A stretch of 64,000 bases of DNA, from the NCBI GenBank assembly GCA_026874595.1, contig CM049307.1, forward strand, positions 41,112,362 to 41,176,361. Reading direction: 5' to 3'. Each line of letters begins with the position of its first letter. Position 1 is the stretch's first letter. Below, in pieces: positions 41,457-42,402 of this stretch. Below the pieces are notes generated by a model, which saw only the letters and a program-made list of their open reading frames with translations, did no database searches and was not told the DNA's origin. A program made the position numbers and the translations under genes. Source of the stretch: Sipunculus nudus (taxonomy: Eukaryota; Annelida; Sipuncula; Golfingiida; Sipunculidae).

Positions 41457-42260
41457 CTGGAACGCAAACATGAATAAAACAATCATGAGTATTTAATTAT
41501 CATTTGTTACATGAACTATACTTTTCAACAAGAGGGCCTTCTCAAATTATATTTCTTACTAAATGAACCACTTATAAACACTGGGGATGTCTCAAAAAAG
41601 GAATATTCTTTTTTATGTGACCCATGAGGAAATACAAGACAAGTCTCAGATACTGTCATCCATTTCTAAATGATCCACTCATAAACATAGGGACTGTCTC
41701 AAAATGAGCAAATGTCTGGACCATTCATAATACTGTCATTATTTCTTACATGATAAACTGATATATGCCCTACCTATGATGAACCACTATAAATTATGTT
41801 TTTTTTTAATATGAACATTTACCACATGAACAAGAGGAATAGTCTTACCATTTAAGGGATCACTTACAACATCAACCCCTGGTAAAGGTGTAGTTTCAAA
41901 TGTGAGCATAACTTAAATAATGATTCAATGATAAAGAAAGGGGCAATCTAAAATATTAAAACTATTTAATACATGATCCACTGTTAAACATATGGACCAT
42001 CTCAAATACTGTCCTAGCCTGTTACATGATCTACTGATAAACTCAGAGACTATTCCAAATACTGTCATCTCACAAGATGATCCACTGATAAACATGATCC
42101 ACTAATAAACAATGAGCCTCTCAAATATTAGCAGCAGTTGCTAGATGATCCGCTGACAGAATCAGGGATGTTCTCCATTACTGTCATCACCTATATCAAG
42201 GTCCACTGACAAGAACCTCTGTTAAATATGGGGACTGTCTCAATTATGAGCATCACTTAC
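41457..42260 (-). repeat. PTEN intron composed of 53-bp copies of the upstream exon's end
   Basis: On the minus strand the end of the next exon reads TTTGAGACGGTCCCCATG, TTTAACGGTGGTTCTTGTA, then donor GTAAGTGATG. Immediately downstream comes TTGAGACAGTCCCCATATTT plus AACAGAGGTTCTTGT, and then about a dozen further copies of 50-66 bp (for example TTTGAGATGGTCCATATGTT plus TAACAGTGGATCATG) as far as about 41540. The exon's last 40-odd bases and its donor have therefore been amplified to form most of this 804-bp intron. Confidence 0.88.
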
Positions 42261-42402
42261 TACAAGAACCACCGTTAAACATGGGGACCGTCTCAAACTT
42301 GATCATCTTGAGAAGCAATGGCACCGGTCGATATTCAAAGTTTTCTTTGATTAGCTGACCATAATATTCTACATATCTTCTCTGGCTTGGAATTGTAACA
42401 CC
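42261..42402 (-). CDS. PTEN: PTEN, phosphatase-to-C2 linker exon (human exon 6 equivalent)
   Basis: 142 bases, exactly the size of the human exon, with the same phases (starts in phase 0, ends one base into a codon). Encodes [18 protein letters not shown] to [12 protein letters not shown]. The TIPSQRRYV motif and the [13 protein letters not shown] segment closing the phosphatase domain are conserved. Acceptor ctttacag, donor TGTA/gtaagt. Confidence 0.98.

Follow-up and report, generated by a model that had tools for sequence, protein, structure and literature searches.

Tandem copies of exon-intron junctions in a PTEN gene of Sipunculus nudus, with similar arrays at myosin genes

The window analyzed here, a 64,000-nucleotide stretch of the Sipunculus nudus genome, carries six exons of a PTEN gene on its minus strand (Table 1). 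Joined through the exon-proximal donor and the last acceptor at junctions that occur in several copies, these exons give an unbroken frame of 332 amino acids, from C71 (CSERHYD) to the C-terminal TTQV, and a two-exon fragment of it matches PTEN chains in the Protein Data Bank at E 2.7e-30. The 20 kb beyond the CSERHYD exon yielded no further upstream PTEN exon, and scans of the window against Rfam (gathering threshold) and for tRNAs gave no match. Genome searches used this animal's 1.43-Gb assembly of 153 contigs.

Table 1. Features of the PTEN gene and of the myosin junctions (window coordinates except where a contig is named)
Feature	Position	Strand	Remark
PTEN exon CSERHYD..HCKAGK	63443..63617	-	founder of acceptor array
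PTEN exon	52185..52292	-	no detected junction repeat
PTEN exon, 142 bp	42261..42402	-	5' of array-bearing intron
PTEN exon NPMFVVYK..	41284..41456	-	after array-bearing intron
PTEN exon	39817..40029	-	no detected junction repeat
Last PTEN exon	39351 to stop	-	
Intron, 804 bp	41457..42260	-	GTAAGT..CAG, phase 1
Founder unit, 53 bp	42245..42297	-	37 bases of exon end and 16 of intron start
Donor-side array	41492..42260	-	14 units of 53 bp fitted, of which 8-10 (41704-41852) lie within the null
Unit 1 of donor-side array	42179..42244	-	adjoins exon; alone in having most of the exon-specific states (4/6)
In-frame TGA	42253..42255	-	two codons beyond donor
Putative donor of a decayed unit, GTAAGTGA	41860..41867	-	weight-matrix score near the real donor's
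Acceptor-side array, 43-44-bp unit	63595..64000, on to ~64338 beyond the window	-	17 units including the authentic one
Six upstream acceptor copies with AG	63618..63893	-	putative exon starts 63660, 63703, 63746, 63790, 63834, 63878
Two-copy 56-bp duplication across the last PTEN exon's acceptor	39347..39460	-	includes 5 exon bases
Donor array at myosin P-loop exon (L029)	C7:52357284-52360541		27 full units of 36 bp plus a partial one, authentic included
Myosin donor array (L054)			four copies including the authentic one
Myosin acceptor array (L050)			at least 4 spare copies
Myosin donor duplication (L018)			one spare copy

Other tandem repeats lie nearby. A plus-strand array at 1062-2285, built of a 30-bp unit (containing CTGTTTTGCTTTAGCT) in about 41 copies, stops 7 bases short of the junction of a WD40-repeat exon; its units resemble that exon's acceptor, and a clear exon-derived part was not found in them. 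A 278-bp tandem repeat, likely a dispersed family, occurs at four places (window 2813-3581, 23852-24884 and 25387-26414, and positions 1969-3013 of the adjoining stretch, L002). About 41 copies of a 46-bp unit occupy 15821-17926, with a second small array of that unit 1 kb on (18819-19027), and 143-bp repeats (CCTTGACCTTTGACC) lie within a PTEN intron at 56193-57161.

The 804-bp intron consists in large part of copies of the end of the preceding exon together with its donor. The initial annotation had given the length of this intron and recognized the exon tail copied into it, and both observations are borne out. By permissive wraparound alignment the intron scores 290 against the 53-bp exon-end unit; shuffled introns reach 32 and shuffled units 34 (n = 20 each), the highest score among 150 random 53-bp pieces of the window is 66, the ends of four other PTEN exons and four other stretches of PTEN intron give 18-24, and the reverse complement gives 18. 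The proposal that the repeats descend from the exon end plus its donor is upheld by this result, all controls scoring 66 or less. (A stricter scoring, run first, recovered the first unit alone, with a score of 80; the permissive scoring was adopted with nulls of its own.) Units fitted to 40 shuffled introns put the 99th percentile at 23 of the 37 exon columns and the 95th at 22. Nine of the 14 units match the exon in at least 23 columns and two in 22, while three, units 8-10, fall within the null. Aligning units to the exon, a check that the initial annotation had proposed, thus places most of them above shuffled introns, and its picture of an intron made almost wholly of decayed 53-bp copies holds for 11 of 14 units (95th percentile or better), units 8-10 being indistinguishable from chance. 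TRF run at score 40 did not report the 53-bp array and listed there just a subrepeat of 17 bp (42077-42111). The 880-bp stretch, searched against the whole assembly with simple repeats and very common words skipped, returned only the self-match, so that within this scope no array independent of PTEN, which the annotation had named as a refutation, was seen.

The copy next to the exon was said to be the best conserved, with identity falling with distance. Unit 1 does stand out, but it does so alone: identity to the exon against distance gives a Spearman rho of -0.19 (P 0.53, 14 units), or +0.02 with unit 1 removed, and units 11 and 13, towards the far end, rank among the best matches. Six exon-derived sites separate the array consensus from the exon. 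Unit 1 carries the exon state at four of them and the other 13 units at zero to two. Four of the six differences are synonymous and two change a residue, and six are too few for dating the array. A tree of the units, also proposed in the annotation, is star-like, with none of its 12 inner branches well supported, and yields no order. The idea that the consensus records an ancestral form of the exon was dropped: despite the four synonymous differences, the array has AGT where the exon has a glycine codon, and PTEN of solved structure has glycine at the aligned position too. A reading of individual units as cryptic exons was set aside, as no pyrimidine stretch accompanies the AG before several units (GATGACAG). 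Exon-derived columns keep 75% of the consensus and intron-derived columns 68% (Wilcoxon P 0.22), and codon positions 1, 2 and 3 keep 0.80, 0.72 and 0.73. To judge from these figures the copies bear no sign of coding constraint and have decayed as would be expected if free of it.

Decoy donors exist in the copies, as had been claimed, but they are few, and strong ones are no commoner than in shuffles. On a donor weight matrix, three of the intron's GT sites (41848, 41749 and 41773) beat the real donor's 2.25 and two more (41867 and 41822) fall just under it, while a single site scores 4 or more, against a shuffle mean of 0.65 on the same matrix. The suggestion that use of a decoy would add repeat-coded residues just before the C2 domain does not survive translation. 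Read through the real donor, the frame is ..FNGGSC S K stop, and since it stops two codons past the donor, a donor further down the intron would be predicted to truncate PTEN before the C2 domain, with no repeat-coded residues gained.

The mirror image of this array, overlooked in the initial annotation, fills the 3' side of the intron before the CSERHYD exon and was followed outward into the adjoining stretch. Its unit is TGTATTCTGTATTTATTGCAG (a pyrimidine-rich stretch plus AG) and the first 22-23 bases of the exon. It is here that the graded decay attributed to the donor array is seen: similarity to a consensus derived from proximal copies falls outward from the exon (rho -0.71, P 0.0015), and does so in the exon-derived part alone (-0.70). 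The AG is in register in 11 of the 16 spare units and is lost in five of the ten outer units, from 63899 outward. Ahead of the real acceptor (63617) are twelve YAG sites, of which six sit in units 93-98% like the consensus and one is out of register with a poor pyrimidine stretch. Among the six upstream acceptors within the window, four would meet a stop before the array ends and the other two would put the exon out of frame. At the last PTEN exon there is a further, two-copy duplication, whose spare copy has TG in place of the acceptor AG. One PTEN gene thus holds arrays of both polarities, unequally decayed.

The same architecture occurs at other genes of this genome. We surveyed 75 myosin-head exon matches, the best candidates listed by the genome search, for a tandem copy at either of their 150 ends, with a score of at least 38 as the cut-off (shuffles of 75 donor sides reach 34). 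Ten of the 150 ends, which come from domain matches in one gene family and may not all be true exon ends, reach it; after the sequences were read, four of 150 have repeats that include at least 10 exon bases. The most striking, at a P-loop exon, spans about 1 kb with nearly identical units. Six ends were dropped: L036 and two ends at L040, where the repeat is wholly intronic, L055, ambiguous with three exon bases, L044, weak and CA-rich, and L043, an AT microsatellite. L036 was checked individually and the other five were judged from the survey output. An earlier version of the survey (8/30 at a score of at least 32) was discarded because related exons had spoilt its null, and earlier versions also picked up alternative myosin exons arranged in tandem, which do not count as junction repeats. 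A row of similar myosin exons at L058/L059 (C2:44843500-44857000) has the look of an alternative-exon set in a muscle myosin heavy chain gene. For a muscle myosin exon, the best relatives of known structure are 3i5f and other squid and scallop entries, the E-values of vertebrate cardiac myosins being almost the same.

The 804-bp intron falls between the C and the N of ..GGSC/NPMF, aligned with ..GGTC/NPQF of PTEN. We take human PTEN to have an intron at the same place and in the same phase, and an exon 6 that is also 142 bp long, and for that reason the present intron seems to be an existing one that grew longer rather than a newly created one. Zhuo in 2007 and Gao and Lynch in 2009 reportedly described the gain of introns from tandem arrays or internal gene duplication. 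The arrays described here share with that process a duplication with splice signals adjoining coding sequence, and differ from it in the apparent lengthening of an existing intron. Intron gain by these routes is also treated in PMC2812944.

A closer parallel is found in amphioxus, where tandem repeats spanning exon-intron boundaries are called "mirages" (PMC3087553). Mirages are further marked by lengths that vary from haplotype to haplotype and by somatic instability. Such boundary repeats are reported too for PGBD5 and, by citation, for TnC (PMC3902484). In the features that can be checked in one assembly, the PTEN arrays appear to match mirages: the units span the boundary; 5' and 3' boundaries are both affected, in different introns of one gene; the authentic junction is retained beside the copies; and many copies keep splice signals, the acceptor AG in most spare units of one array and donors in a few copies of the other. 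Gene and animal both differ here: the name was given in cephalochordates, and the amphioxus genome is about 0.5 Gb in size, against 1.43 Gb for this assembly. PMC3087553 gives 81-100% identity for the units of amphioxus BflGb6, with six and three units in two haplotypes, and mentions degenerate repeats in one other intron. Compared with BflGb6, the PTEN donor array is more decayed, and the largest myosin array, with its 27 full units, is far from the six or three found there. A literature search confined to open-access papers, with subscription journals outside its scope, found the boundary-repeat combination only in the amphioxus globin paper, and within the same scope found no report of tandem repeats in bivalve PTEN introns.

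It would appear, with a high degree of probability, that the PTEN arrays are best explained as tandem duplications spanning splice junctions, the spare copies being tolerated as intron. We infer the duplication, the choice of splice site by the cell, the order of events and the neutrality of the copies as follows. A short piece straddling an exon-intron junction would be copied in tandem, by replication slippage or unequal exchange, and the duplicated junction would then offer two donors (or two acceptors), of which the exon-proximal donor or the last acceptor would be kept. Since that choice preserves the protein, the spare copies would become intron, free to multiply and decay, and the intron would be lengthened. 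The proximal donor of the 804-bp intron presumably keeps joining the next exon, because PTEN stays in frame. Its consensus differs from the exon while unit 1 holds four of the six exon states, which suggests that most of the array was seeded from one already-mutated copy; unit 1 would be a later copy of the exon, or would have been re-matched to it by gene conversion. A mirror event would have taken place at the acceptor of another PTEN intron, where the last acceptor is kept. It is extremely improbable that these arrays arose from an assembly error, belong to a dispersed satellite or resemble the exon by chance: the region is rich in tandem repeats, but the alignment scores lie far above those of shuffles and random pieces, the 880-bp stretch has a single match in the assembly, and the units would seem too decayed and diverse for assembly stutter.

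Junctions might also be singled out, by a process aimed at them (e.g. breakage at paused or looped transcription) that raises duplication there, and the evidence on this divides in a way that leaves it unlikely. By the procedure used for myosin, three of 11 PTEN junctions have a tandem copy scoring at least 38 (76, 54 and 54), against four of 150 myosin ends (Fisher P 0.007), a PTEN excess that includes the donor array that prompted the analysis. Treating the five exon bases of the last-exon duplication as those of L055 were treated, and so counting only repeats with at least 10 exon bases, turns this into two of 11 against four of 150, which is borderline (P 0.055). Array ends lie near the 17 known junctions in four cases of 14 against 0.65 by random placement (P 0.004), in a test chosen post hoc where one end belongs to the prompting array; actual contact, also a post hoc test, is seen in four of 14 against 1.6 expected (P 0.06). 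Chance placement would predict these array ends only if arrays were trimmed at exons by selection, which, acting against repeats that reach into exons, would on its own make arrays end at junctions. Nor is there a clear excess over the tandem-repeat background: three of 11 PTEN junctions compares with 14.6% of PTEN-region positions having a tandem copy of at least 35 (binomial P 0.21), and about 20% of random window positions have one (n = 3000).

A role in regulation, in which decoy donors and above all stacked acceptors would produce truncated, decayed messages and copy number would set the dose of PTEN, seems to us very unlikely. It would draw on the YAG sites upstream of the real acceptor, half of them in units close to the consensus, on the loss of the PTEN frame from all six in-window upstream acceptors, and on TATGAC, which resembles a branch-point motif and recurs in most proximal acceptor units about 20 bases before the next AG. 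Against it, the donor-array copies show no conservation signal, half of the outer acceptor units have no AG, and amphioxus arrays of the same kind leave regular splicing undisturbed, according to PMC3087553. Junction-spanning duplication with tolerated spare copies remains our reading, and the PTEN arrays probably just lengthen introns.

This is a known kind of repeat, described one gene at a time in amphioxus (PMC3087553, PMC3902484); what stands out here is its recurrence within PTEN and at other genes of the same genome. A much broader proposal, which we regard as unlikely, is that junction duplication is a standing, genome-wide means of intron growth that favors junctions, with the copy number of the PTEN acceptor acting as a heritable dial on the amount of PTEN made; if true, such arrays would be present, in all degrees of decay, at something like a few per cent of junctions. 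The young stack of PTEN acceptors offers a natural test of spliceosome choice between acceptors that are almost identical. Decay in this one genome covers a range with 27 nearly identical units at one end and, at the other, an array decayed enough to escape a standard repeat finder, and that range would allow a measurement of how often splice-junction duplication lengthens introns.
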